From: Caballeronia concitans
GTDB lineage: Bacteria > Pseudomonadota > Gammaproteobacteria > Burkholderiales > Burkholderiaceae
DNA: 64,000 nt
Direction of reading: 5' to 3'
Assembly: GCF_001544615.1 (NCBI RefSeq)
Contig: NZ_FCNV02000003.1
Span: 186,001 to 250,000 of the forward strand
The notes below the pieces were generated by a model. The model was not told the DNA's origin. It ran no database searches and saw only the letters and a list, made by a program, of their open reading frames with translations. The translations under genes were made by a program, and so were the position numbers. Shown here piece after piece: positions 13,902 to 25,936 of the stretch; the stretch's first letter is position 1; each line of letters begins with the position of its first letter.

Positions 13902-14387
13902 TCAAGCCTTATACCCGATCTGCCGCAGCAAGTCCTTGCGCCACTGCACGTCCTCGCGGCTCTCGACGCCGAGCGGCGGCAATCCATCCACCACGCCGAT
14001 GATTCCCCGCCCCTGGTCCGTCTCCGCGACGAGCACCTGCGTCGGATTCGCCGTCGCGCAGAAGACGCGGCAGACTTCCGGCACGGCCTTGACCGCATTG
14101 AGCACGTTGACCGGAAAAAAGCCGTCCCCGAGCACGACAATGAAGCTGTGCCCCGCGCCGATGTTCTGCGCATTGCGCGTAGCCAGATCGACGAGACCGT
14201 CGTCCGTTCCCGATGCGCGCACGAGCCGCTTGCCCGACGCCTCGCAGAACGCGAGCCCGAAGCGGATGCCCGGCACCGCGCCGACGAGCGTCTCGTGCAG
14301 GTCCTCGACCGTCTTGATGAAATGCGACTGGCCGAGAATGAAGTTCGTGTTTTCCGGCTTCTCGATGCCGATGGCGAGCAGTTGCAT
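13902..14387 (-). CDS. Adenosine-specific kinase-like protein
   Basis: A 161-residue protein starting MQLLAIGIEKPENTNFILGQ and containing GAGHSFIVVLGDGFFPVNVL and ATANPTQVLVAETDQGRGI. This matches the small adenosine-specific kinase family known from archaeal structures and widespread in bacteria. The biochemical role in bacteria is not established. The start at 14387 has GGAGG six to seven bases upstream. It lies 81 bases downstream of nasS on the same strand, so it may belong to the same transcript; no link to nitrogen metabolism is documented to my knowledge. Confidence 0.75.
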   Translation of the reverse strand: MQLLAIGIEKPENTNFILGQSHFIKTVEDLHETLVGAVPGIRFGLAFCEASGKRLVRASGTDDGLVDLATRNAQNIGAGHSFIVVLGDGFFPVNVLNAVKAVPEVCRVFCATANPTQVLVAETDQGRGIIGVVDGLPPLGVESREDVQWRKDLLRQIGYKA

Positions 14388-14468
14388 GGCGCACCTCCGT
14401 TGCAAGAGCGTTGGGTTGCAACGGTAATGGTAGGCGGTCCGGCGCGGTATCGACGCGCCACACACGCG

Positions 14469-15596
14469 CTATGCATGCATGGCGAACCCCGCGAGATAAG
14501 CCTTCGCATCGCGTCCGTCCCACACGCGGCCGTCGCAGAGCGTCGCGGTTTGCGTTTCGTCGGGAATCGCGATTCCCGCCGCCCGTGCTGCTTGCGCGTA
14601 CAGCGCCGTCTGATTCACCGCCTGCGCGATGGCTGCGTCGTCGAGCGCGGCATCGAGCATCCCCCAGCGCCGGTACTGCGTGATGAACCACAATCCGTCC
14701 GATGCGCGCGGATAGTTCACCGCGCCACCCTCGAAAAATCGCAGCGGTGCGACGCCGGTCACGGACCCGAGCCGTGCTTCGATCAGCTGCCGCCGCACGC
14801 CGAGCAGATCGGGCGAAGCGAGCGCGCCGGCAATCTCCACGCGATGCTCTCGCGAATCGAGCCATTCGCACGCTTCGAGCATCGTGCGAATGAGCGCGCG
14901 CGCCGTGTTCGGATAAAGCGCGACGAAGTCCCGCCGGCACGCAAGCACCTTCTCCGGGTGATCCGGCCAGATTTCGCTCGTATAAACGACCGTGCGGCCC
15001 GCGCCGCACGCCTCGGCGACCGCGTGCCACGGCTCGCCGGCGCAGAAGCCGTCGAGCGTGCCTTCGACGAGCGCATCGGCCATGCGCGGCGGCGGAATCA
15101 CGAGGCTGCGCACATCGGACAACGGATGCACGCCTTGCGCCGCGAGCCAGTAGTAAAGCCACATCGCATGCGTGCCGGTGGGAAACGTCTGCGCGATGAC
15201 CGGCGTGCGCCCGAGCGATGCCAGCGCGTCCTTCACGCTCGCGCCTCGCCCGATGGCATCCGCGAGCGGATTCGACAGCGTGATGGCCTGGCCGTTGCGA
15301 TTGAGCACCATCAGCACGGCCATGTCCGCCTGCGGTCCGCCGATGCCGAGTTGCACGCCATATACGAGCCCGTACAGCGCGTGCGCGGCGTCGAGCTCGC
15401 CGGAAAGCAGCTTGTCGCGCACCGCGGCCCACGAAGGCTGCCTGCACAGTTCGATGCTGATGCCATGACGCCGTCCCATGTCGCGCAGTGCGGCGGCGGC
15501 GAGCGGCGCGGCGTCGCTCAGGGCGACGAAGCCCAGCCGCACATGCGGCCGCTCGGGCGTGAGCGTCGCGGAAGAAGGGATATCGGGCGAATTCAT
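14469..15596 (-). CDS. nasS: Nitrate/nitrite sensor NasS (NrtA/CmpA-like)
   Basis: A 375-residue protein of the NrtA/CmpA periplasmic nitrate-binding fold but without a signal peptide (it begins MNSPDIPSSATLTPERPHVR), which is what distinguishes the cytosolic sensor NasS from transport proteins. Segments such as RLGFVALSDAAPLAAAAL and LMVLNRNGQAITLSNPL belong to this fold. In the known NasST system, NasS holds NasT inactive without nitrate or nitrite and releases it when they bind. The adjacent ANTAR gene 24 bases upstream makes this assignment strong. Gene order nasT-nasS is the reverse of the commonly described nasS-nasT. Confidence 0.92.
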   Translation of the reverse strand: MNSPDIPSSATLTPERPHVRLGFVALSDAAPLAAAALRDMGRRHGISIELCRQPSWAAVRDKLLSGELDAAHALYGLVYGVQLGIGGPQADMAVLMVLNRNGQAITLSNPLADAIGRGASVKDALASLGRTPVIAQTFPTGTHAMWLYYWLAAQGVHPLSDVRSLVIPPPRMADALVEGTLDGFCAGEPWHAVAEACGAGRTVVYTSEIWPDHPEKVLACRRDFVALYPNTARALIRTMLEACEWLDSREHRVEIAGALASPDLLGVRRQLIEARLGSVTGVAPLRFFEGGAVNYPRASDGLWFITQYRRWGMLDAALDDAAIAQAVNQTALYAQAARAAGIAIPDETQTATLCDGRVWDGRDAKAYLAGFAMHA

Positions 15597-15620: not shown

Positions 15621-16196
15621 TTAACGCAGCAGGTCTGCAAGCGAAAGAAGCTGGCGCGCGATTTCGGCGACCTTCACGCCCTGATCCATCGCCCGCTTGC
15701 GCAGCGTGGCGTACGCATCGTTCTCGGACATGCCGCGCCGGTCCATCAAGAGGCGCTTGGCACGGTCGATGACCTTGCGTTCCGCGAGTTCGTTCTCCAC
15801 TTGCTCGAGCCGCTGACGCAACTGCGCCTCATGCGCGAAACGCGCGAGCGCGACCTCGATGATCGGCGCGAGCCGCTCGGGCGCGAGTCCTTCGACGGAA
15901 TACGCGGTCACGCCCGCGCCGACCGCCGCGCGGATGAACTGCTGGTCCGCGTCATTGCTGAACATGAGCACCGGACGCGGCGCGGCCTTGTTCATGACCG
16001 CGAGCTGTTCGAGCGTGTCCCGCGAAGGCGATTCCGTGTCGATGATGACGACGTCCGGCTTCTGGCTTTCGATGGCCGCATGCAATTGCGCGGGCGCGGC
16101 GACTTCCGCGAGCATCTCGTAGCCGAGCGGCGCGAGTTTGTCGCGCAGATCGCCGATAGGCTTGTCGGTGTCGGTGACGAGAAGAACGCGAAGCAT
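15621..16196 (-). CDS. nasT: ANTAR antitermination regulator NasT
   Basis: A 191-residue protein. Residues 1-115 form a receiver-like domain (LRVLLVTDTDKPIGDLRDKL; Asp in VVIIDTES). The conserved receiver lysine is not evident (AYSVEGL), consistent with control by NasS binding instead of phosphorylation. A helical linker leads to a C-terminal ANTAR domain at about 130-185 with AKRLLMDRRGMSENDAYATL, the RNA-binding signature. NasT binds paired hexaloop stems in nascent leaders and prevents termination; two matching leaders lie at 17102-17205 and 17556-17677. Start chosen at MLRVLLV; the ribosome site is weak. It lies 94 bases behind cobA. Confidence 0.93.
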   Translation of the reverse strand: MLRVLLVTDTDKPIGDLRDKLAPLGYEMLAEVAAPAQLHAAIESQKPDVVIIDTESPSRDTLEQLAVMNKAAPRPVLMFSNDADQQFIRAAVGAGVTAYSVEGLAPERLAPIIEVALARFAHEAQLRQRLEQVENELAERKVIDRAKRLLMDRRGMSENDAYATLRKRAMDQGVKVAEIARQLLSLADLLR

Positions 16197-16290: not shown

Positions 16291-17046
16291 TCATGCGGCG
16301 TGCGCGAAACTTCGGCCGCCGTGCGCCGCAAACGCGGCCGCTTCGCCGATCGCCGCGCCCACGAGAATCACGGCGGGACTGCCGAGACCGGCGGCGGCTG
16401 CATCGTCGGCGAGACGGGCGAGCGTCGTCACGAGCCGCTTCTCTTCATGCGATCCCGCGTGCTGCACGACGGCGGCCGGCGTCGTGGCCGGCAGCACGTC
16501 GAGCAGCGACTGCGCGATGCCCCCGATGCGGCTCATGCCCATGTAGATGGCAAGCGTCATGCCGGTGGCCGCGAGCGCGCGCCAGTCCGGCTCGCTGTGG
16601 TCGCGCATGTGCGCGGTGACGAAGGTCACGCCCTGGCAATGATCGCGATGCGTGAGCGAGATCCCGAGCCCCGCCGCCGCCGCGAATCCCGACGACACGC
16701 CGTTCACGATATCCACTTCGATGCCCGCGCCGCGCAACGCCGCGATCTCTTCGCCCGCGCGGCCGAAGAGCAGCGCATCGCCGCCCTTGACGCGCACGAC
16801 GTGCAGGCCCTTTCGCGCGTAACGCTGCATGAGGCGCTCGATGAACGCTTGCGGCGTCGACTTGCAGCCGCCTCGCTTGCCGACGCGAATCACGCGCGCT
16901 TTCGGGGCGAGCGTCACGATGTCCGCGTTGGCGAGATCGTCGACGAGCAGGATGTCGGCGGCGGCGAGTGTCTTCGCGGCGCGAATCGTGAGCAGGTCGA
17001 GATCGCCGGGGCCTGCGCTGAGAAGGGTGACTTTTCCGGAGGTCAT
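16291..17046 (-). CDS. cobA: Uroporphyrinogen-III C-methyltransferase
   Basis: A 251-residue SUMT enzyme with VTLLSAGPGDLDLLTIRAAK at the N-terminus and VVRVKGGDALLFGRAGEEIA as the SAM-binding loop. It makes precorrin-2, the precursor of siroheme. It is the single-domain type, without the CysG dehydrogenase/chelatase part. Its place opposite narK-nirBD, behind its own ANTAR-type leader, indicates that it supplies siroheme to nitrite reductase NirB. ATG 17046 is preceded by AAAGGA. The leader (about 165 bases from the predicted transcript start) contains a terminator that NasT is expected to override. Confidence 0.93.
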   Translation of the reverse strand: MTSGKVTLLSAGPGDLDLLTIRAAKTLAAADILLVDDLANADIVTLAPKARVIRVGKRGGCKSTPQAFIERLMQRYARKGLHVVRVKGGDALLFGRAGEEIAALRGAGIEVDIVNGVSSGFAAAAGLGISLTHRDHCQGVTFVTAHMRDHSEPDWRALAATGMTLAIYMGMSRIGGIAQSLLDVLPATTPAAVVQHAGSHEEKRLVTTLARLADDAAAAGLGSPAVILVGAAIGEAAAFAAHGGRSFAHAA

Positions 17047-17101: not shown

Positions 17102-17137
17102 AAAAAGCGTCCGCTCGTGTCGGGCACGAGGGACGCC
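17102..17137 (-). terminator. Intrinsic terminator in the cobA leader
   Basis: On the minus strand GCGTCC-CTCGTG (17136 down to 17125) pairs with CACGAG-C-GGACGC (17119 down to 17107) with one bulged C, then runs into TTTTTG. It sits between the promoter and cobA, 55 bases before the start codon, so it must be read through for expression. Its 5' arm overlaps the second hexaloop stem, making the two folds mutually exclusive. Confidence 0.85.
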
Positions 17138-17205
17138 ATTGTCCGTGTTTCGATGTGAGCGCGCGCGATGCACGCCTGATCCATTGCCGCCGACGCCGTT
17201 GCCGG
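17131..17205 (-). promoter_or_regulatory. ANTAR-type twin hexaloop antiterminator, cobA leader
   Basis: Two stems with six-base loops. P1 (17205-17190): CCGGC-AACGGC-GTCGG. P2 (17144-17131): GGAC-AATGGC-GTCC. Both loops carry A at position 1 and G at position 4, the ANTAR hexaloop signature. P2 uses the GGCGTCC that otherwise starts the terminator. The 45-base spacing between stems is longer than the short linkers I recall for described examples but matches the narK side (43). Expected ligand: NasT, encoded two genes away. Confidence 0.82.
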
Positions 17206-17220
17206 TGACGTGTTGTTCGA

Positions 17221-17236
17221 TGCAATAAGCGGGCCA
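17221..17236 (-). promoter_or_regulatory. Sigma-54 promoter of the cobA(-nasT-nasS) unit
   Basis: On the minus strand TGGCCC-GCTTA-TTGCA fits the sigma-54 consensus TGGCAC-N5-TTGCA at all but one position, with GG and GC at exact -24/-12 spacing. The predicted start is about 17210, five bases before the P1 stem of the antiterminator. Confidence 0.82.
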
Positions 17237-17280: not shown

Positions 17281-17295
17281 GCACTAGCGAAGTGC
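17281..17295. promoter_or_regulatory. Candidate NtrC site 1
   Basis: GCAC-N7-GTGC (GCACTAGCGAAGTGC), the dyad core of the NtrC consensus TGCACCNNNNTGGTGCA. It lies about 78 bases upstream of the predicted cobA-side start, in the normal enhancer range. Confidence 0.5.
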
Positions 17296-17389
17296 GCGGC
17301 GGCACTTGCACGGCCCGTGCGTGCCTTCATCGAGTGAATGATGGGGCGGGCTAACCAGATCGTACATTTCGGCACGATGAAAGACGCCC

Positions 17390-17425
17390 GCACGTGATCA
17401 GTGCTGCGTCGCACCATGCTTGTGC
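17390..17425. promoter_or_regulatory. Tandem candidate NtrC sites 2 and 3
   Basis: Two GCAC-N7-GTGC dyads, at 17390-17404 (GCACGTGATCAGTGC) and 17411-17425 (GCACCATGCTTGTGC). Their centres are 21 bases apart, two helical turns, as for cooperative NtrC pairs. They sit about 135-155 bases upstream of the narK-side start and about 190-210 from the cobA-side start, so one enhancer could serve both divergent sigma-54 promoters. Confidence 0.65.
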
Positions 17426-17525
17426 CGGCCCGCATCACGACGCAGCGTTCACGCGATGCCCGCAAGCAGTGCACGCATCTCGCAAAGCCTTGCTCCACAA
17501 GGCTTAACGGCCGATGACATTCGCA

Positions 17526-17541
17526 TGGCATAGCCCTTGCC
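17526..17541 (+). promoter_or_regulatory. Sigma-54 promoter of the narK-nirBD-nasA operon
   Basis: TGGCAT-AGCCC-TTGCC fits the sigma-54 consensus with invariant GG (-24) and GC (-12) at correct spacing. The predicted start is about 17552, four bases before the first antiterminator stem, mirroring the divergent side. Confidence 0.82.
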
Positions 17542-17555
17542 TTTAGTCGTGCCAT

Positions 17556-17630
17556 CGGATCAACGGCGATCCGTCCTGAACACAGCGCCCCGGCTCGAAC
17601 GAGTCAGACGGGCATCGGACAACGGCGTCC
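17556..17630 (+). promoter_or_regulatory. ANTAR-type twin hexaloop antiterminator, narK leader
   Basis: P1 (17556-17573): CGGATC-AACGGC-GATCCG, a six-pair stem. P2 (17617-17630): GGAC-AACGGC-GTCC, a four-pair stem. Both loops are AACGGC, with A1 and G4. Between them GGCTC-GAAC-GAGTC (17592-17605) can form a small extra stem. P2 shares GGCGTCC with the terminator's 5' arm, so NasT binding to P1/P2 would block terminator formation. Confidence 0.87.
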
Positions 17631-17677
17631 CCCGCATCTGGCTTAATCGGCTGGATGCGTGGGACGCCTTTCTTTTT
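17624..17677 (+). terminator. Intrinsic terminator directly before narK
   Basis: GGCGTCCC-C-CGCATC (17624-17638) pairs with GATGCG-T-GGGACGCC (17654-17668), 14 pairs with one mismatch, followed by TTTCTTTTT (17669-17677). The narK ATG is only 12 bases further on. A textbook attenuator in the leader. Confidence 0.92.
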
Positions 17678-17688
17678 GCGGAAAGAGA

Positions 17689-19014
17689 ATGGACAAAGCC
17701 ACCCGGATCGATCTCTTCAGCATGCGCAGTGCGCCGATGCGCGCCTTCCATCTCACATGGATGGCGTTTTTCGTGTGCTTCTTCGCGTGGTTCGCGTGCG
17801 CGCCGCTGATGCCGCTCATCAAGCGCGAATACGGCCTCAACGCGGATCAGATCGCCAACATCAACATCGCGGCTGTGGCCGTGACTATTCTCGTGCGACT
17901 CGTCATCGGTCCGATGTGCGACCGCTTCGGTCCGCGCAAGGTCTATAGCGCGCTCCTCCTCGCGGGCGCGGTGCCGGTGATCGGCGCGGCGCTTTCCACC
18001 GGCTACGAGAGCTTCCTGTGGTGCCGTCTCGCGATCGGCGCGATCGGCGCGAGCTTCGTCATCACGCAGTACCACACCTCGGTGATGTTCGCGCCGAACG
18101 TCGTCGGCACCGCGAATGCGACGACCGCCGGATGGGGCAACGCAGGCGCGGGCGCGGCGCAAGCCATCGTGCCCTTGCTCGTTGCGGCAGCGATCGCATT
18201 GGGCGCGGGCGAAGCATCGGCATGGCGTATCGCGCTGATCGTGCCGGGCATCGTCATGCCGGTCATGGCCTTCTTCTACTGGCGTTATACGCAGGACTGC
18301 CCGCAAGGCGACTTCTCGCAGTTGCGGCGCGCGGGCATTGCCATCGACGGCGGCAAGAAAGGCGGCTGGGACAGCTTCGTGACCGCGTGCGCGAACTATC
18401 GCGTGTGGATGCTCTTCGTGACCTATGGCGCGTGCTTCGGCGTCGAAGTGTTCATTCATAACATCGCGGCCGTGTACTACGTCGATCACTTCAAGCTCAC
18501 GCTCGGCGAAGCTGGCATGGCAGCGGGCAGCTTCGGCCTCCTCGCACTGTTCGCCCGTGCGCTCGGCGGCTGGCTCTCCGATAAAGCCGCTGCCAAACGC
18601 GGTCTCGACATTCGCGCGACGTTGCTCTTCGCGTTGATCGCGGGCGAAGGCATCGGGCTCTATGCATTCGCGCATGCGGGCAGCGCGGCGCTTGCCGTCA
18701 TCGCGATGCTCGCCTTCGGTCTCTTCACGCACATGGCATGCGGCGCGACGTATGCGCTCGTGCCGTTCATCGATCGCAAGGCGCTCGGTGGCGTGGCGGG
18801 CGTGATCGGCGCGGGCGGCAACGTGGGCGCGGTCGCCGCGGGCTTCCTGATGAAAGGCGTCGGCGACGTGCAGCAGACGCTCTCGCTGCTCGGCGTGATG
18901 GTCGCCGGTTCCGCGCTTTGCGCGCTCGCCGTGCGCTTCTCGCCGGAACACAAGGCGCGCGAAGCCGCGCTGCGCGAAAGCGCGCTTGCAGTCAACAACG
19001 GCGTCGCCAACTGA
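17689..19014 (+). CDS. narK: Nitrate/nitrite transporter, NarK/NasA family
   Basis: A 441-residue, 12-helix major facilitator protein of the nitrate-nitrite porter family. The two glycine-rich nitrate signatures are visible: AGWGNAGAGAAQAIVPLL in helix 5 and GAGGNVGAVAAGFL in helix 11. Substrate arginines are expected in ITQYHTSVMF-type segments and were not individually verified. It is the first gene of an assimilatory operon with nirB, so it most likely imports nitrate from outside for assimilation. ATG 17689 follows GGAAAGAG, which begins right after the terminator T-tract. Expression should need sigma-54 initiation and NasT antitermination. Confidence 0.92.
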   Translation: MDKATRIDLFSMRSAPMRAFHLTWMAFFVCFFAWFACAPLMPLIKREYGLNADQIANINIAAVAVTILVRLVIGPMCDRFGPRKVYSALLLAGAVPVIGAALSTGYESFLWCRLAIGAIGASFVITQYHTSVMFAPNVVGTANATTAGWGNAGAGAAQAIVPLLVAAAIALGAGEASAWRIALIVPGIVMPVMAFFYWRYTQDCPQGDFSQLRRAGIAIDGGKKGGWDSFVTACANYRVWMLFVTYGACFGVEVFIHNIAAVYYVDHFKLTLGEAGMAAGSFGLLALFARALGGWLSDKAAAKRGLDIRATLLFALIAGEGIGLYAFAHAGSAALAVIAMLAFGLFTHMACGATYALVPFIDRKALGGVAGVIGAGGNVGAVAAGFLMKGVGDVQQTLSLLGVMVAGSALCALAVRFSPEHKAREAALRESALAVNNGVAN

Positions 19015-19028
19015 GGAAAGGTCCAGTC

Positions 19029-21569
19029 ATGAAAATCGTCGTCATCGGCCACGGCATGGTCGGCCACAAGTTCCTCGAATGTCTCGCCGAAAGCGGCAAC
19101 GATGCGCTGCAAGTCACGGTCGTTTGCGAAGAACCGCGCGCCGCGTACGATCGCGTGCATCTGTCGGAGTTCTTTGCGGGCAAGTCCGCGGACGATCTTT
19201 CGCTCGTCGAAGAAGGCTTCTTCGAGCGTTCGGGTTATGCGTTGAAGCTCAACGCGAAGGCCACGTCGATCGATCGCGTGGCGCGCACGGTCACGGTATC
19301 GACGGGCGAAACGCTCGCCTATGACAAGCTCGTGATCGCAACGGGTTCGTATCCGTTCGTGCCGCCCGTCGAAGGACGGGACCGCGAAGGCTGCTTCGTG
19401 TATCGCACGATAGAAGATCTCGAAGCGATGCAAGCCTTCGGCGCACGCGCGAAGACGGGCACGGTGGTCGGCGGCGGATTGCTCGGCCTCGAAGCCGCGA
19501 AGGCGCTGCGCGACATGGGCCTTGTCACGCATGTCGTCGAATTCGCGCCGCGTCTCATGGCCGTGCAAGTCGATGAAGGTGGCGGGCGCGTATTGCGCAG
19601 CAAGATCGAAGAACTCGGCGTGACGGTGCATGTGAATCGCAATACGCTCGCTATCGTCGATGGCGAGGGCGCGGTGAATCGCATGAATTTCGCGGACGGC
19701 GCGCATCTCGACACAGACATGATCGTGTTCTCGGCGGGCATTCGTCCGCGCGACGATATCGCGCGTGAAGCGGGTATCGAGATCGGTCCGCGCGGCGGTA
19801 TCGTCATCGACGATGCCTGCCGCACCAGCGATGCCGACATCTATGCCATCGGCGAATGCGCGTTGTGGAAAGGGCAATTGTTCGGCCTCGTTGCGCCGGG
19901 CTACGACATGGCGCGTATCGTCGCGAAGCAGTTGACAGGCGAGCAGGCCGCGTTCGCGGGCGCCGACATGAGCACGAAACTCAAGCTGATGGGCGTGGAC
20001 GTGGCGAGTATCGGCGATGCGCACGGCAAGACGCCGGGCAGCCGTTCGTATCAGTTCAGCGACGAGCGCAAGCAGGTCTACAAGAAGCTCGTCGTATCCG
20101 ATTGCGGCAAGTATCTGCTGGGCGCCGTGATGGTCGGCGATGCAGCCGAATACGGCACGCTATTGCAGATGATGCTGAACAGGATCGAGCTGCCCGAAGC
20201 GCCCGAATTCCTGATTCTTCCGCAAAGCGATGGCAAGGCGAAGCCCGCGCTCGGCGTCGAAGCATTGCCCGATGCCGCGCAAATCTGCTCTTGCAACAAC
20301 GTCAGCAAGGCCGAAATCTGCGCAGCGGTATGCGCGGGCGCGACGAGCATCGGTGCGTTGAAGAGCGCATGCAAGGCGGGCGCAACGTGCGGCGGCTGCG
20401 TGCCGCTCGTCACGCAAGTGATGAAGTCGGAGATGCAGCGTCAGGGCATGGCCGTGAACAATCATCTCTGCGAGCACTTCCCGTATTCGCGTCAGGAGCT
20501 GTATCACATCGCGCGCGTGGAAGGGCATCGCACGTTCGGATCGTTGCTCGCGAAGCACGGCAAGGGACTGGGCTGCGATATCTGCAAGCCGGCCGTCGCG
20601 AACATTCTCGCTTCATGCTGGAACGAATTCGTGTTGAAGAAGGAACACGCGAGCCTTCAGGATTCGAACGACTACTACCTCGCCAACATTCAGCGCGACG
20701 GCACGTACTCGGTCGTGCCGCGCATGCCCGGCGGCGAAGTGACGCCCGATGGTCTTATCGCGGTCGGACAGATCGCGAAGAAATACGGCCTTTATACGAA
20801 GATCACCGGCGGTCAGCGTGTCGACATGTTCGGCGCGCGCGTCGAGCAATTGCCGCTCATCTGGGAAGAGCTGATTGCAGCGGGTTTCGAATCGGGGCAT
20901 GCATATGGCAAGGCGCTGCGCACGGTGAAGTCGTGTGTGGGTTCCACGTGGTGCCGCTATGGTGTCGGCGATTCTGTCGGGCTCGCGGTGGAACTGGAGA
21001 ACCGCTACAAAGGCCTGCGCACGCCGCACAAGATCAAGTTCGGCGTATCGGGCTGCACGCGCGAATGCGCCGAAGCGCAAGGCAAGGACATCGGCATCAT
21101 CGCGACGGAAAAGGGCTGGAATCTCTATGTCTGCGGCAACGGCGGCATGAAGCCGCGTCATGCGGAACTGCTCGCATCCGATCTCGATCAGGCCACGCTC
21201 GTGCGCTTCATCGACCGCTTTCTGATGTTCTATGTGCGCACGGCGGATCGTCTTCAGCGCACGAGCGTATGGCGCGACAACCTCGAAGGCGGCCTCGATT
21301 ATCTGATCGATGTCGTCGTGAACGACAAGCTCGATATCGCCGCCGAGCTCGAAGCCGAGATGCAGCATGTGGTCGACAGCTACGAGGACGAGTGGAAGAA
21401 GGCCGTCACCGACCCCGACACGCGCAAGCGCTTCCGTCACTTCGTGAACAGCGAACGGAGCGATGAAAACGTGCGCTTCGTCGAAGAGCGCGGCCAGATT
21501 CGTCCCGCGACGCTCGAAGAACGCACGATGAAACGCATCGATATTCCCGTTACCGTTGAAACCGTCTGA
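19029..21569 (+). CDS. nirB: Assimilatory NADH-nitrite reductase, large subunit
   Basis: An 846-residue siroheme enzyme that reduces nitrite to ammonia in the cytosol. Residues 1-400 form an FAD/NAD(P)H module (KIVVIGHGMVGHKFLECLAE; GGGLLGLEAAKAL). About 415-480 carry a BFD-type [2Fe-2S] centre with CSCNNVSKAEIC and CGGC. The C-terminal half is the sulfite/nitrite reductase core, with 4Fe-4S/siroheme cysteines in SCVGSTWC... and SGCTRECAEAQ. Length is typical. ATG 19029 follows GAGGAAAGG, 14 bases after narK. Works with NirD, encoded next. Confidence 0.97.
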   Translation: MKIVVIGHGMVGHKFLECLAESGNDALQVTVVCEEPRAAYDRVHLSEFFAGKSADDLSLVEEGFFERSGYALKLNAKATSIDRVARTVTVSTGETLAYDKLVIATGSYPFVPPVEGRDREGCFVYRTIEDLEAMQAFGARAKTGTVVGGGLLGLEAAKALRDMGLVTHVVEFAPRLMAVQVDEGGGRVLRSKIEELGVTVHVNRNTLAIVDGEGAVNRMNFADGAHLDTDMIVFSAGIRPRDDIAREAGIEIGPRGGIVIDDACRTSDADIYAIGECALWKGQLFGLVAPGYDMARIVAKQLTGEQAAFAGADMSTKLKLMGVDVASIGDAHGKTPGSRSYQFSDERKQVYKKLVVSDCGKYLLGAVMVGDAAEYGTLLQMMLNRIELPEAPEFLILPQSDGKAKPALGVEALPDAAQICSCNNVSKAEICAAVCAGATSIGALKSACKAGATCGGCVPLVTQVMKSEMQRQGMAVNNHLCEHFPYSRQELYHIARVEGHRTFGSLLAKHGKGLGCDICKPAVANILASCWNEFVLKKEHASLQDSNDYYLANIQRDGTYSVVPRMPGGEVTPDGLIAVGQIAKKYGLYTKITGGQRVDMFGARVEQLPLIWEELIAAGFESGHAYGKALRTVKSCVGSTWCRYGVGDSVGLAVELENRYKGLRTPHKIKFGVSGCTRECAEAQGKDIGIIATEKGWNLYVCGNGGMKPRHAELLASDLDQATLVRFIDRFLMFYVRTADRLQRTSVWRDNLEGGLDYLIDVVVNDKLDIAAELEAEMQHVVDSYEDEWKKAVTDPDTRKRFRHFVNSERSDENVRFVEERGQIRPATLEERTMKRIDIPVTVETV

Positions 21570-21585
21570 ACGAGAGGAACACGCC

Positions 21586-21930
21586 ATGAACGACCGCATC
21601 GAAAAGGACTGGACGCCCATTTGCGCACTCGACGAAATCGTGCCCGACACGGGCGTCTGCGCGCTCGTCAACGGCGCGCAAGTGGCCGTGTTTCACGTCG
21701 CGGGCGAATCGTCGTCCGTGTATGCCATCGACAACTTCGATCCGCACTCGCAAGCGGCGGTGCTCTCGCGCGGCATCGTCGGCAGTCTGGGCGAGCGCAT
21801 CGTCGTGGCGTCGCCCATCTACAAGCAGCACTTCGATCTGCGCACGGGCGAATGCCTCGAAGCGCCCGAGCGTTCGGTGAACGCGTATCGCACGCGCGTC
21901 GCGGGCGGCAAGGTTTGGATCGCGGCATGA
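21586..21930 (+). CDS. nirD: Nitrite reductase small subunit
   Basis: A 114-residue protein with a Rieske-type fold (ALVNGAQVAVFHVAGESSSVYA). It lacks the Cys/His ligands of a true Rieske cluster, as is normal for NirD. Forms the NADH-nitrite reductase with NirB. ATG 21586 has GAGAGG upstream. Its TGA overlaps the ATG of the FAD oxidoreductase gene (ATGA), so the two should be translationally coupled. Confidence 0.95.
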   Translation: MNDRIEKDWTPICALDEIVPDTGVCALVNGAQVAVFHVAGESSSVYAIDNFDPHSQAAVLSRGIVGSLGERIVVASPIYKQHFDLRTGECLEAPERSVNAYRTRVAGGKVWIAA

Positions 21931-23183
21931 AGACCGAATACGCGGTTGCGGCTGCGGCGGGCGTGGTGGCGCGTCAGCGGCTCGTGGTCATCGGCAACGG
22001 CATGGCGGGCATGCGCACCGTCGAAGAGTTGCTGAAGATCGCGCCCGAGCTGTACGAGATCACCGTGTTCGGCGCGGAGCCGCATGGCAACTACAACCGC
22101 ATCCTGCTCTCGCCGGTGCTCGCAGGCGAGAAGAGCATGGACGACATCATCATCAATACGCGCGAATGGTATGCCGCGAACGGCATCACGCTGCATGCGG
22201 GCGATGCGGTCGTCGAGATCGATCGCGCGCGGCGTATCGTGCGATCGGAGAAGGGCGTCGAGGCGCGTTATGACCGGCTGCTGATTGCGACCGGCTCGAA
22301 TCCGTTCGTCATTCCGGTGCCTGGATCGAATCTGCCCGGTGTGATCGCCTTCAGGGATATTCAGGATGTCGAATCGATGCTGAATGCCGCGCGAGATCAT
22401 CGTCATGCGGTGATCATCGGCGGCGGATTGCTCGGCCTCGAAGCGGCGAACGGCCTGCAACGGCAGGGCATGTCGGTGACGGTGGTGCACGCGAGCGACA
22501 GCCTGATGGATCGCCAGCTCGATGCGAGCGCATCGGCGTTGCTCAAGCGGTCGCTCGAAGCAAAGGGCCTGCGTTTCGCGATGGCCGCGCAGACCACGGA
22601 GATCGTCGGCGACGATCGCGTTCGCGCGGTGCGCTTCGCCGATGGCACGCAGATCGACGCGGACCTCGTCGTGATGACGGCGGGCGTGCGCCCGAACATC
22701 GCGCTTGCGAAGGCGGCGGGGCTTTATTGCGAGCGCGCGATCGTCGTCGACGACACGCTCCAGACTTTCGATCCGCGCGTGTATGCAGTGGGCGAATGCG
22801 TGCAGCATCGTTCGGCCACGTTCGGTCTCGTTGCGCCGATCTGGGATCAGGCGCGCGTGGCGGGCGCGCATCTCGCGGGCGCTGGGCATCGGCGTTATGT
22901 GCAGCGCGCGACGGCAACGAAGCTCAAGGTCACCGGCGTGGACCTCTATTCCGCGGGCGATTTCGTCGGCGGCGACGATAGCGAAGACCTCGTGCTGCGC
23001 GATCCGCGTCGCGGCGTTTATAAGCGTGTCGTGCTGCAAGCGGGACGCGTGATCGGCGCGGTGCTTTATGGCGACGTCAAAGACGGCGCGTGGTACTTCG
23101 ATCTCATTCAGAGCCGCACGGATGTATCGCATCTGCGCGGGCGTTTGTTGTTCGGCAAGACGCTTTGCGAAGCGGGCGCATAG
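21927..23183 (+). CDS. FAD/NAD(P)-dependent oxidoreductase, likely nitrate reductase electron-transfer subunit
   Basis: A 418-residue flavoprotein with an FAD motif in RLVVIGNGMAGMRTVEELLK, a NAD(P)H motif in VIIGGGLLGLEAANGL and the C-terminal FAD element DDTLQTFDPRVYAVGEC. It resembles the N-terminal module of NirB and stand-alone NasB-type reductases, but has no BFD iron-sulfur or siroheme part. Its place between nirD and the nitrate reductase gene (5 bases apart) suggests it passes electrons from NAD(P)H to that enzyme, whose C-terminus carries the missing BFD-type centre. Role inferred from context. Confidence 0.85.
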   Translation: MKTEYAVAAAAGVVARQRLVVIGNGMAGMRTVEELLKIAPELYEITVFGAEPHGNYNRILLSPVLAGEKSMDDIIINTREWYAANGITLHAGDAVVEIDRARRIVRSEKGVEARYDRLLIATGSNPFVIPVPGSNLPGVIAFRDIQDVESMLNAARDHRHAVIIGGGLLGLEAANGLQRQGMSVTVVHASDSLMDRQLDASASALLKRSLEAKGLRFAMAAQTTEIVGDDRVRAVRFADGTQIDADLVVMTAGVRPNIALAKAAGLYCERAIVVDDTLQTFDPRVYAVGECVQHRSATFGLVAPIWDQARVAGAHLAGAGHRRYVQRATATKLKVTGVDLYSAGDFVGGDDSEDLVLRDPRRGVYKRVVLQAGRVIGAVLYGDVKDGAWYFDLIQSRTDVSHLRGRLLFGKTLCEAGA

Positions 23184-23188
23184 ACGGC

Positions 23189-25936
23189 ATGGATATGAAA
23201 GCGAGCATCCCTATTATCCGGAGCGAGCCGGCCACGGTCCGCACGACGTGCCCTTATTGCGGCGTGGGCTGCGGCGTGAAGGCGACGCCTCGCAGCGCCA
23301 TCGATGTCGCCATCGCGGGTGACGAACGGCATCCGTCGAACTTCGGGCGGCTCTGCGTGAAGGGCTCGGCGCTTGGCGAAACCGTCGGGCTGGAAGGGCG
23401 CCTGCTCAGTCCGAAGATACGCGACAAGACCACGGGCGCACTCACCGATGTCTCTTGGAACGACGCGATCGGCAGCGTCGCGAGCGGCTTTGCGCGCATC
23501 ATCGACGAACATGGTCCGGATGCGGTCGCGCTGTATGTGTCGGGGCAATTGCTCACCGAAGACTACTACGTCGCGAACAAGCTGATGAAGGGTTATATCG
23601 GCAGCGCGAACATCGATACGAACTCGCGGCTGTGCATGTCGTCGTCGGTGGCGGGGCACAAGCGCGCGTTCGGCGAAGACCTTGTGCCGATGAACTATGA
23701 AGACCTCGAACTCGCGGATCTGATCGTGCTCGTCGGGTCGAACACGGCGTGGTGTCATCCGATCCTGTTTCAACGCATCGTGAAGATGAAGGAGACGCGG
23801 CCCGAGGTGAAGATCGTCGTGATCGATCCGCGCTATACCGCCACATGCGAAATGGCCGATCTGCATTTGCCGCTGAAGCCCGGCAGCGACGTGCGGCTCT
23901 TCAACGGACTGCTCGCGTTCCTCGCCGAGCATGGCGCAACGGATGCCGCTTTCATCGATGCCCACACGAACGGTTACGATGCCGCGCTTGCATCGGCCAC
24001 GCCTGCCGATATCGCGCAGATCGCGAAGGACTGCAAGCTCGATGCGCATGACCTGACGACGTTCTATCGGCTATTCGCGCGCACCGAGCGCGTGGTGACG
24101 GTGTATTCGCAGGGCGTCAATCAGTCGAGCGCGGGCACGGACAAGGTGAACAGCATCATCAACTGTCATCTTGCGACGGGACGTATCGGCAAGCCGGGCA
24201 TGGGGCCGTTCTCGTTCACCGGCCAGCCGAATGCAATGGGCGGGCGTGAAGTCGGCGGCCTCGCGAACACGCTCGCCGCGCATCTGGAACTGGAGAGCGA
24301 AGCGCATCGCGCGATGGTGCAGACGTTCTGGGACTCGCCGCGCATTGCGCAGCGCGCCGGGTTGAAGGCCGTCGACCTCTTCGATGCAATCGAGGCGGGC
24401 CGCGTGAAAGCTGTATGGATCATGGGCACGAATCCGGTCGTGAGCCTGCCCGATGGAGATCGCGTGAAGCGTGCGCTCGATCAGTGCGAACTCGTGGTGA
24501 GTTCGGACATCATCGAGAAGACGGATACGAATGCATGTGTGCATGTGCTTTTGCCCGCGCTCGGCTGGGGCGAAAAGGACGGCACGGTGACGAACTCGGA
24601 GCGACGCATATCGCGGCAGCGCGCGTTTCTGCATGCGCCGGGACATGCGCGCGCAGACTGGCGAATCATCTGCGATGTGGCGCGTCGCATGGGCTTCGAT
24701 GGCTTCGATTTCGAAGGCCCGCATCAGATCCTCGACGAACACGCGCGGCTCTCTGCGTATCGCAACGATGCAGCCGATGGCGTGCATCGCACGTTTGATA
24801 TCGGCGGTTTGAGCGGACTGAGTCGCGAGCAATACGATGCGCTGGAGCCGGTGCAATGGCCGGTGCGTTCGAAGGGCGAATCAGGCGACGCTCGCCTTTT
24901 CGAAACGCGCCGCTTCAGCCATGCCGATGGCCGCGCGCGCTTCGTCGCGACTCTGCCGCGCGCGCCGGTCAACGCACCCGATGCCGACTATCCGCTCGTG
25001 CTCAACACGGGCCGTGTGCGCGATCAATGGCACACCATGACACGCACGGGCCGTTCAGAGAAGCTTGCGGGACATATCAGCGAATCGTTCATCGACATGC
25101 ATCCGCAAGACGCGCTTGCATGCGGCGTTCGCGAGGGCGAGCTTGCGCGCATCACGAGCCGATGGGGTTCGATGATCGCGCGCGTGCAGCATGGCGGCGG
25201 CATGCCGCGCGGCAGTGTCTTCGTGCCGATCCACTGGAACGATCAAGTGGCGTCGGATGCGCGCGTGGGTGCCGTGGTGAATCCCGTTGTCGATCCAATA
25301 TCCGGCGAGCCGGAGTTCAAGCACACGCCCGTCGCTATCGAGAAGTTTCATGTGACATGGCACGGCTTTTCGCTTTCGCGCGACGTTCCCGCGCTCGATG
25401 CCGTCACGCACTGGACCCGCGTGCATGGTGCGCGTTTCGTGCGCTATGAACTCGCGGGGCGCAATCGATTCGATGCGTCGCATGGCGATCATCGTGAATG
25501 GGCGCGCGCGCTCTTCAAGATCGACGATCCGCACGCGGACTGGATCGAATACGAGGACAAGAGCGCGGGTGTGTATCGCGCGGCGCATGTGGTGAACGAT
25601 CGCATCGAGCATTGCGTGTTCATCTCCGAGCGCCCGGACTTGCCGGCGCGTGCGTGGCTTGCAAGTTTGTTCTCGAAGGATCGGCTCGATGAAGAAGACC
25701 GCGTGAGCCTGTTGCTCGGTCAACCCGTCGGCAAGAGCGAGGACACCGGGCCGACCGTGTGTTCGTGCTTCGGCGTGGGCCGCACTACGATCTGCAACGC
25801 GATTCGCGAAAAGAGCCTGAAAACAGCGGCTGAAGTCACCGCGTGCGTGAAGGCGGGCGGCAACTGCGGTTCGTGCGTGCCGGAGCTGAAGAAGCTGATC
25901 GTCGAAACGGAGATGGCGCGGTTGAGCACCGTATGA
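23189..25936 (+). CDS. nasA: Assimilatory nitrate reductase, catalytic subunit
   Basis: A 915-residue molybdopterin enzyme. The N-terminal CPYCGVGCGVKATPR and later GRLCVKG hold a 4Fe-4S cluster. The Mo-bisMGD domains span to about residue 700 (SNTAWCHPILFQRIV; NPVVSLPDGDRVKRAL; NTGRVRDQWHTMTRTG). The last about 60 residues form a BFD-like [2Fe-2S] domain, with CSCFGVGRTTICNAI and GGNCGSCVPEL, as in some assimilatory reductases. No Tat signal, hence cytosolic. It converts nitrate to nitrite for NirBD. Last gene of the operon; it faces the efflux kinase gene with 12 bases between. Called nasA after Klebsiella; other species use other names. Confidence 0.93.
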   Translation: MDMKASIPIIRSEPATVRTTCPYCGVGCGVKATPRSAIDVAIAGDERHPSNFGRLCVKGSALGETVGLEGRLLSPKIRDKTTGALTDVSWNDAIGSVASGFARIIDEHGPDAVALYVSGQLLTEDYYVANKLMKGYIGSANIDTNSRLCMSSSVAGHKRAFGEDLVPMNYEDLELADLIVLVGSNTAWCHPILFQRIVKMKETRPEVKIVVIDPRYTATCEMADLHLPLKPGSDVRLFNGLLAFLAEHGATDAAFIDAHTNGYDAALASATPADIAQIAKDCKLDAHDLTTFYRLFARTERVVTVYSQGVNQSSAGTDKVNSIINCHLATGRIGKPGMGPFSFTGQPNAMGGREVGGLANTLAAHLELESEAHRAMVQTFWDSPRIAQRAGLKAVDLFDAIEAGRVKAVWIMGTNPVVSLPDGDRVKRALDQCELVVSSDIIEKTDTNACVHVLLPALGWGEKDGTVTNSERRISRQRAFLHAPGHARADWRIICDVARRMGFDGFDFEGPHQILDEHARLSAYRNDAADGVHRTFDIGGLSGLSREQYDALEPVQWPVRSKGESGDARLFETRRFSHADGRARFVATLPRAPVNAPDADYPLVLNTGRVRDQWHTMTRTGRSEKLAGHISESFIDMHPQDALACGVREGELARITSRWGSMIARVQHGGGMPRGSVFVPIHWNDQVASDARVGAVVNPVVDPISGEPEFKHTPVAIEKFHVTWHGFSLSRDVPALDAVTHWTRVHGARFVRYELAGRNRFDASHGDHREWARALFKIDDPHADWIEYEDKSAGVYRAAHVVNDRIEHCVFISERPDLPARAWLASLFSKDRLDEEDRVSLLLGQPVGKSEDTGPTVCSCFGVGRTTICNAIREKSLKTAAEVTACVKAGGNCGSCVPELKKLIVETEMARLSTV

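Follow-up and report, generated by a model that had tools for sequence, protein, structure and literature searches.

A candidate NasT-responsive ANTAR attenuator fed by a sigma-54 promoter ahead of narK in Caballeronia concitans, with a second, divergent leader before cobA-nasT-nasS

In the eut leaders recognized by EutV, the two hexaloop hairpins P1 and P2 are separated by linkers of 5-12 nucleotides (nt); induction falls sharply when the linker is cut to 3 nt or extended to 14 nt, and lengthening by 20 nt abolishes antitermination, according to excerpts of the EutV papers (PMC3369931, PMC8934654). A curated actinobacterial set of ANTAR leaders admitted linkers of 2-25 nt (PMC8164766, in excerpt). 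A mutational study in Paracoccus denitrificans dealt with two hairpins located 137 and 91 base pairs (bp) before nasA (PMC5424462, in excerpt). The leader described here precedes narK, a nitrate transporter gene, in a stretch of 64,000 nt from Caballeronia concitans (contig NZ_FCNV02000003.1, positions 186,001 to 250,000; hereafter the window). Its sequence, its conservation and covariation across related loci, the mutual exclusion of two of its hairpins on folding and its co-occurrence with an ANTAR gene were all observed, and together suggest that the leader is very probably a transcription attenuator responsive to the ANTAR protein NasT and fed by a sigma-54/NtrC promoter. Its elements are as follows.

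17526 to 17540, plus strand: sigma-54 promoter TGGCAT-N5-TTGC, TGGCATAGCCCTTGC, by direct reading; predicted transcript start (+1) at 17552.
17556 to 17573, plus strand: P1 hexaloop hairpin CGGATC-AACGGC-GATCCG, beginning at +5 with its loop at +11.
17574 to 17616, plus strand: linker between P1 and P2, 43 nt, with a predicted middle hairpin Pm at 17587-17613 that is a plain hairpin in the window.
17617 to 17630, plus strand: predicted P2 antiterminator hexaloop hairpin GGAC-AACGGC-GTCC.
17624 to 17677, plus strand: intrinsic terminator with a stem of 19 pairs (17624-17668) and a T-tract (17669-17677), exclusive with P2.

The order of promoter, P1, P2 and terminator, with P1 starting four bases after the predicted transcript start, had been proposed in a preliminary description made from the letters of the window, and was confirmed by direct reading and by a scan for hexaloop hairpins. 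The promoter shows GG-N10-GC at -24/-12, and both hairpin loops have A as their first and G as their fourth base (A1/G4) by direct reading. Folding of the terminator gave 19 pairs (8 and 11 flanking a 1x1 mismatch) rather than the 14 first counted, with -36.1 kcal/mol compared to -4.0 kcal/mol for P2, and the T-tract ends 11 bases, not 12, before the narK ATG at 17689. The sequence GGCGTCC is common to P2 and the 5' arm of the terminator, and the mutual exclusion claimed on that ground was upheld by folding of the growing transcript. P2 formed once it had been transcribed, with pair probabilities of 0.81-0.98 at the five lengths folded between 17632 and 17660, and yielded to the terminator on completion of the 3' arm of the latter, the probabilities at 17668 being 0.00 for P2 and 1.00 for the terminator; P1 remained folded in the terminator state (pair probability 1.0). 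G4 of the P2 loop also opens the terminator stem and, therefore, a protein gripping G4 would directly block the stem. The 140-nt leader folded with a z-score of -4.25, and equal stability was reached in 0 of 200 shuffled sequences. A scan of both strands for two AANG hexaloops and a terminator with its 5' arm beginning inside the second loop returned one match in the window, the narK leader, and none in 60 first-order Markov (Markov-1) windows of the same size, under a strict rule for the arm that overlooks the second leader described below.

The upstream regions of orthologous narK loci, the best 80 of 590, were compared, giving 81 sequences with the window (loci are designated by L numbers and genomes by G numbers); the closest NarK orthologues among the matches listed are 90-93% identical and mostly from Caballeronia. 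The P2 pattern is present in 78 of the 81 sequences, 76 of these 78 also show a degenerate sigma-54 pattern at 70-160 nt upstream of P2, and P1 is present as well in 73. These 73 constitute the pattern set, outside which fall L019, L024, L057, L066, L069, L074, L077 and L078. Since the set was selected on a P1 loop with A1/G4 and at least three pairs, a Pm with A1/G4 and at least four pairs, and a fixed P2 pattern, its A1/G4 invariance and part of its pairing are by construction. Counted from the predicted start, the P1 loop opens between +8 and +14 in 72 leaders and at +32 in the remaining one, L021, and P2 occurs as GGACAACGGCGTCC (51), GGACAATGGCGTCC (12), GGGCAACGGCGTCC (9) and GGACAAAGGCGTCC (1). 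In 41 of 41 distinct windows, a set likewise chosen with A1/G4, P1 is closed by a C-G pair. An unbiased scan of 76 sequences, requiring only a 6-nt loop and at least four pairs near the predicted start with the loop letters left free, found a hairpin in 71 and none in five; A1, A2 and G4 were present in 68 of the 71 loops, the misfits being L021, L049 and L062.

The preliminary description had made its proposal depend on conservation of the A1/G4 loops and the stems, and had called for an alignment of orthologous leaders in which compensatory changes could be sought. The loops are conserved as above, and compensatory changes were found in the stems of both P1 and the terminator. Double changes occur at 5 of 6 P1 pairs, with a score reached by 0 of 500 shuffles, a measure that leans towards structure as at least three pairs were demanded for entry. 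In the terminator they occur at 12 of 20 pairs in alignment A1, which holds 38 of the 81 sequences; its overall covariation score was 0.429, compared to at most 0.132 when slid, and was reached by 0 of 500 shuffles. A covariance model, R1, built from alignment A1 (37 of the 80 loci plus the window leader), recovered the narK leader in 77 of the 80 loci with an expectation value (E) of at most 5.3e-13, including 40 of the 43 loci outside its training. The remaining three were L074 and L077 (Sphingomonas), with E of 6e-4 to 8e-4, and L066, with no match at E 0.05. The covariance search suggested earlier was productive with R1; with Rfam it gave only sub-threshold matches on the leader. A T-tract was seen in 70 of the 73 leaders.

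The preliminary description had characterized the arrangement as twin hexaloops of the NasR/NasT type of antitermination. The reading as antitermination is supported by conservation, covariation and co-occurrence, but "twin hexaloops" oversimplifies the arrangement because the 43-nt distance between P1 and P2 breaks the EutV spacing rule; that description mentioned neither this linker nor the second, divergent leader. All 73 leaders have linkers of 31-67 nt, with a median of 41 nt, which are not short in the sense of either the eut leaders or the actinobacterial set. The short-linker rule, shown experimentally for EutV, is not taken here as defining NasT leaders. The linker often contains a middle hairpin. 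In 30 rows, which we assign to the Oxalobacteraceae by taxonomy, the best linker hairpin with a 6-nt loop, letters free, is of the A1/G4 type in 28, the other two being without a hairpin, and between its end and P2 lie 1-12 nt, as in canonical leaders. The other 43 rows, window included, comprise none with an A1/G4 linker hexaloop, 17 with another loop and 26 with no 6-nt loop hairpin of four pairs. A third hexaloop hidden in Pm of the window was considered and rejected, since an A1/G4 loop on at least four pairs was found in 0 of these 43 rows. Double changes in Pm occur at 3 of 8 pairs, a number matched by 155 of 500 shuffles; the covariation score was matched by 0 of 500. Most simply, NasT would be able to tolerate or bridge gaps too long for EutV; the positions of the two hairpins before nasA in P. 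denitrificans fit this view.

Upstream of the promoter are palindromes of the form GCAC-N7-GTGC, which we take to be NtrC-like sites from their consensus.

17281 to 17295, strand not assigned: NtrC-like palindrome, distal.
17390 to 17404, strand not assigned: NtrC-like palindrome, 136 bp before the -24 element.
17411 to 17425, strand not assigned: NtrC-like palindrome, 115 bp before the -24 element.

The latter two are spaced 21 bp apart (two helical turns) and are conserved. Perfect palindromes were found upstream in 50 of 73 regions versus 0.6 expected from mononucleotide shuffles, at approximately -136 and -115 relative to the -24 element in the window and in many Caballeronia and Burkholderia loci; other loci have a single palindrome nearer -100. 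The 285 bp separating the two divergent sigma-54 promoters hold all three palindromes of the window (17281-17425). The count over the whole window, 5 versus 3.0 expected, is near chance and, therefore, it is the clustering and conservation that carry weight. Putative enhancer sites are accompanied by cognate regulators, the genome encoding two RpoN proteins and an NtrC (625 bits, cut-off 558.6).

As noted in the preliminary description, nasT is encoded nearby, approximately 1.4 kb from the leader, and no other ANTAR protein was found in the genome. NasT provides the genome with a cognate ANTAR protein bearing RNA-contact residues: alignment with EutV (6wsh) over approximately 180 residues showed the counterparts of R142, K143, Y164 and M172 to be kept and K147 to be replaced by Arg, the EutV numbering being derived from this alignment after allowing for an offset of two positions. 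The roles of these residues in EutV are those given in excerpts of PMC8934654. Among 250 genomes, all from the order Burkholderiales and hence not independent, R1 matched at E of at most 0.001 in 78 and an ANTAR gene was found in 125. Both were present in 74, R1 only in 4, ANTAR only in 51 and neither in 121 (Fisher p = 5e-24). At E of at most 1e-4 the respective numbers were 70, 1, 55 and 124, the single R1-only genome being G490, which is 67% complete. Few candidates were scored per genome in this search and the filters were strict, the search overlooking the window genome's own second leader, and the leader counts are lower bounds. An ANTAR gene was found in 22 of 23 relatives' genomes searched. 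The exception was L066 (Burkholderia guangdongensis), with no ANTAR match in the genome, where the sigma-54 sites are retained and both P2 and the terminator before narK, as well as the hairpins before cobA, are lost. As judged from its sequence, L066 represents a natural case of decay of the leaders together with loss of the regulator.

The second sigma-54/ANTAR leader, at 17236-17102 on the minus strand, precedes cobA-nasT-nasS and diverges from that of narK. Its elements are listed below.

17222 to 17236, minus strand: sigma-54-like element TGGCCCGCTTATTGC, with a predicted start at 17210.
17190 to 17205, minus strand: hairpin P1', CCGGC-AACGGC-GTCGG, with its loop at +11.
17131 to 17144, minus strand: hairpin P2', GGAC-AATGGC-GTCC, 45 nt past P1'.
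17102 to 17137, minus strand: terminator of the cobA-nasTS leader, with TTTTT.

The model R1, in the training of which the cobA leader had no part, matched minus-strand positions 17206-17096 with 34.1 bits (E 6e-10 in the window), and when the organism's own genome was searched (150 of 3310 candidates scored) only the narK and cobA leaders passed E = 0.001. Folded alone, the cobA leader was unremarkable (z = -1.15); the case for this predicted leader rests on R1, on conservation and on the covariation of P1'. The cobA gene lies on the minus strand in 27 sequences, window included, of which 26 have it back-to-back with narK and one (L036) with nirB. R1 found the cobA leader at E of at most 0.05 in 26 of the 27, the matches to L047 (13.8 bits) and L079 (15.9 bits, partial) being weak, and missed it in L066. 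A pattern scan omitting L066 detected the sigma-54 match, P1' and P2' in 26 of 26 cobA leaders, with the loop letters of P1' and P2' as part of the selection. Over 14 distinct windows the covariation score of P1' was reached by 0 of 500 shuffles and its three double-change pairs by 201 of 500. The T-tract of the cobA leader is poor at several loci and, therefore, termination there may be leaky. No such R1 match was obtained in L017, where nasTS is divergent without cobA. A further ANTAR leader is present before nirB at six Paraburkholderia-type loci (L018:5540-5664, L020:5536-5660, L021:5553-5673, L022:5574-5699, L024:1951-2075 and L036:7198-7321). A separate observation was made in Rugamonas (L087:1421-1507), where R1 matched the plus strand with 29.2 bits between the tblastn matches to nasT and nasS. 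The cobA-nasT-nasS operon appears to belong to the NasT regulon, and its leader would therefore imply that NasT amplifies its own synthesis. A survey from 2025 reports, in excerpt, sigma-54 promoters before nasT-family genes (PMC12316311); no report of an ANTAR leader before a nasT operon or of nasT autoregulation was found in the open-licence literature.

The following sequence of events is proposed, for which we infer the start site, the binding of NtrC and NasT, the order of loading, the efficiency of termination and autoregulation. Under nitrogen limitation, phosphorylated NtrC on the upstream palindromes would activate transcription from approximately 17552. Without nitrate, NasS would retain NasT, and the nascent RNA would form the 19-pair terminator and stop near 17677. 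With nitrate, freed NasT would load on P1 soon after P1 leaves the polymerase and capture P2 ahead of the terminator, sequestering GGCGTCC and permitting read-through to narK, nirBD and the nitrate reductase gene. The divergent cobA-nasT-nasS leader would obey the same rule, such that NasT amplifies its own operon.

Several observations weigh against this proposal. The linker of 43 nt is outside the range working for EutV, as judged by comparison with the published constructs, and folded alone it is unexceptional (z = -0.99). Seven Paraburkholderia-type linkers (L018, L020, L022, L036, L049, L062 and L063) are almost or wholly unstructured (0 to -4.6 kcal/mol) and, therefore, Pm cannot be a universal spacer helix; the idea that it serves as a general one is weakened accordingly. 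Forcing both P1 and P2 to form costs the full leader 9.6 kcal/mol relative to the terminator fold, and NasT must therefore trap P2 while the RNA grows. In L049, L062 and L063 (Paraburkholderia) the terminator stem is present and a T-tract was not found, leaders that perhaps no longer terminate. The 51 of 250 genomes with an ANTAR gene and no R1 match, in a search with strict filters, also count against it. Lastly, narK of Bradyrhizobium rose in a nasT deletion despite predicted hairpins (PMC6759348, in excerpt), and a predicted leader is therefore no proof of control.

The alternative that survives best, although unlikely, is that P1 is unused for antitermination over the 43-nt gap and NasT acts on P2 alone, P1 serving for instance in protection of the 5' end or for a second NasT dimer. 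This view accommodates a linker beyond the known range of EutV, and excerpts of the literature describe EutV as binding one hexaloop, with the minimal motif redefined as one hexaloop (PMC8934654), and NasR as binding P2 alone, with approximately 12 uM compared to 1 uM for P1P2 (PMC7496416). However, a mere stability hairpin needs neither the A1, A2 and G4 kept in 68 of 71 P1 loops nor the C-G closing pair kept in 41 of 41, and antitermination by EutV in vivo requires both hairpins (PMC3369931, in excerpt). Rather less likely still is that the terminated leader is a stable small RNA titrating NasT by its free P1, in the manner of the EutX sponge, with attenuation only half its role. EutX carries a dual hexaloop and sequesters EutV (PMC8934654, in excerpt), P1 of the narK leader persists in the terminator state, and the similar leader P11, which the narK leader resembles below threshold, is named a Pseudomonas small RNA gene in Rfam; nevertheless, the amounts of leader RNA would need to match those of NasT. 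An ordinary constitutive terminator with chance hairpins and no protein ligand, for which the good folding of the terminator alone could be cited, is highly improbable given 0 such arrangements in 60 Markov-1 windows, the conserved loops, the co-occurrence with ANTAR genes and the joint loss of leader and ANTAR gene in L066.

The leader was also compared with the RNA families of Rfam, for which a search of the window returned nothing at gathering score. Sub-threshold matches on the leader, short of membership, were obtained with RF03032 (narK RNA; 22.7 bits versus 43.2 gathering) and RF00625 (P11; 22.4 bits versus 70 gathering). With RF03032 against the organism's own genome (150 of 1146 candidates scored) the best E was 3.08, at chance level, and the narK leader was not among the matches. 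Both models are like the narK leader in that a -24/-12-like element at their start is followed by A..G hexaloops, and they match the same places in two genomes, G026 and G127 (L092, L095, L101 and L102), whereas Rfam files RF03032 as a cis-regulatory RNA and RF00625 as a gene. The RF03032 matches inspected have mostly short linkers. The P11-bearing family, which we take to be the Pseudomonadaceae as RF00625 is a Pseudomonas RNA, has P1-P2 gaps of mostly 15-29 nt, and a middle A1/G4 hexaloop just before P2 was found in 18 of 30 P11 loci, for example TCCCG-ACAGAG-CGGGA. When linkers of more than 14 nt were classed as long, 25 of 66 further leaders were long and had a middle hexaloop, 22 were long and lacked one (four of these at only 15-16 nt), and 6 were short; the other 13, in which no pair of sigma-54 element and P1 was found, were left unclassified. 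This evidence (L089, L099, L116-L144; G026, G127) suggests that narK RNA and P11 are ANTAR leaders with models that include the untranscribed sigma-54 promoter. No reports on P11 as a nitrate leader, on triple ANTAR hairpins or on "narK RNA" were found in the open-licence literature.

It is possible, if somewhat doubtful, that the NasT leaders of the Burkholderiales and of the P11-bearing (Pseudomonas-type) family form a distinct class of three-hairpin relay with twin, divergent, self-amplifying copies. In such a class the 5'-proximal hexaloop, at a set distance from the sigma-54 start, would load NasT, and the middle hairpin, either a hexaloop or a plain helix as in the window, would pass NasT over a gap lethal to EutV for antitermination at P2. 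Twin divergent copies, one of them before cobA-nasT-nasS, would render nitrate sensing self-amplifying.

The genes around the two leaders comprise narK, nirB, nirD and genes for an FAD oxidoreductase and a nitrate reductase-like enzyme, in that order, with cobA, nasT and nasS running divergently.

17689 to 19014, plus strand: narK/nasA-type nitrate transporter of the major facilitator superfamily (TIGR00886, 289 bits, below the cut-off of 311.7).
19029 to 21569, plus strand: nirB, nitrite reductase large subunit.
21556 to 21930, plus strand: nirD, nitrite reductase small subunit (open reading frame as listed).
21621 to 23183, plus strand: FAD/NAD oxidoreductase (open reading frame as listed; domain from approximately residue 120).
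23090 to 25936, plus strand: assimilatory nitrate reductase-like molybdopterin enzyme (open reading frame as listed; 464.9 bits with the NasC model, the cut-off of 1100 not being reached).
16291 to 17046, minus strand: cobA/sumT, with a likely start at 17046 (listed open reading frame start 17184).
15621 to 16196, minus strand: nasT, with a receiver-like domain (28.8 bits, below the Pfam cut-off of 30.2) and an ANTAR domain (68.6 bits).
14469 to 15596, minus strand: nasS, nitrate-binding sensor family (NMT1_2, 284 bits).

The listed start of cobA falls within the second leader. The predicted true start of the FAD/NAD oxidoreductase is further in than the listed 21621, as its domain begins at approximately residue 120. 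Immediately behind nasS on the minus strand, at 13902-14465, is a gene of the adenosine-specific kinase family (PF04008).

The rule of closely spaced hexaloops rests on EutV work and underlies the current relay model. The conserved set of leaders with gaps of 31-67 nt, and with a third hexaloop in one family, would directly test that model, and such leaders would escape filters such as 2-25 nt. The cobA-nasTS leader predicts positive autoregulation of the nitrate sensor. Leaders of the NasS-NasT type also occur in Azotobacter and Pseudomonas.

The nasF leader of Klebsiella oxytoca, read by NasR, is like the narK leader a 5' leader in nitrate assimilation with A1/G4 hairpins P1 and P2 and with exclusion between P2 and a terminator (PMC3369936, PMC7496416, both in excerpt). 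In contrast to nasF, the ANTAR protein of the narK leader is NasT with a separate sensor, NasS, and not a NIT-ANTAR fusion; the narK leader further has a 43-nt linker with a predicted hairpin. In P. denitrificans, as proposed here, nitrate frees NasT from NasS and NasT binds leader RNA (PMC3795266, in excerpt). A third hexaloop, a fixed distance between the sigma-54 promoter and P1, and a leader before nasTS go unmentioned in the excerpts of the P. denitrificans accounts (PMC3795266, PMC5424462). EutV and the eutP leader of Enterococcus faecalis have in common with NasT and the narK leader the dual A1/G4 hexaloop, the exclusion between P2 and terminator and the contact residues, whereas eut linkers are 5-12 nt, with longer ones failing, and those of the narK leaders are 31-67 nt in 73 of 73. 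Overall, the kind of switch is already known from these systems, and what is new is the distance between P1 and P2, the hairpin within the linker and the presence of a twin leader ahead of the operon of the regulator.

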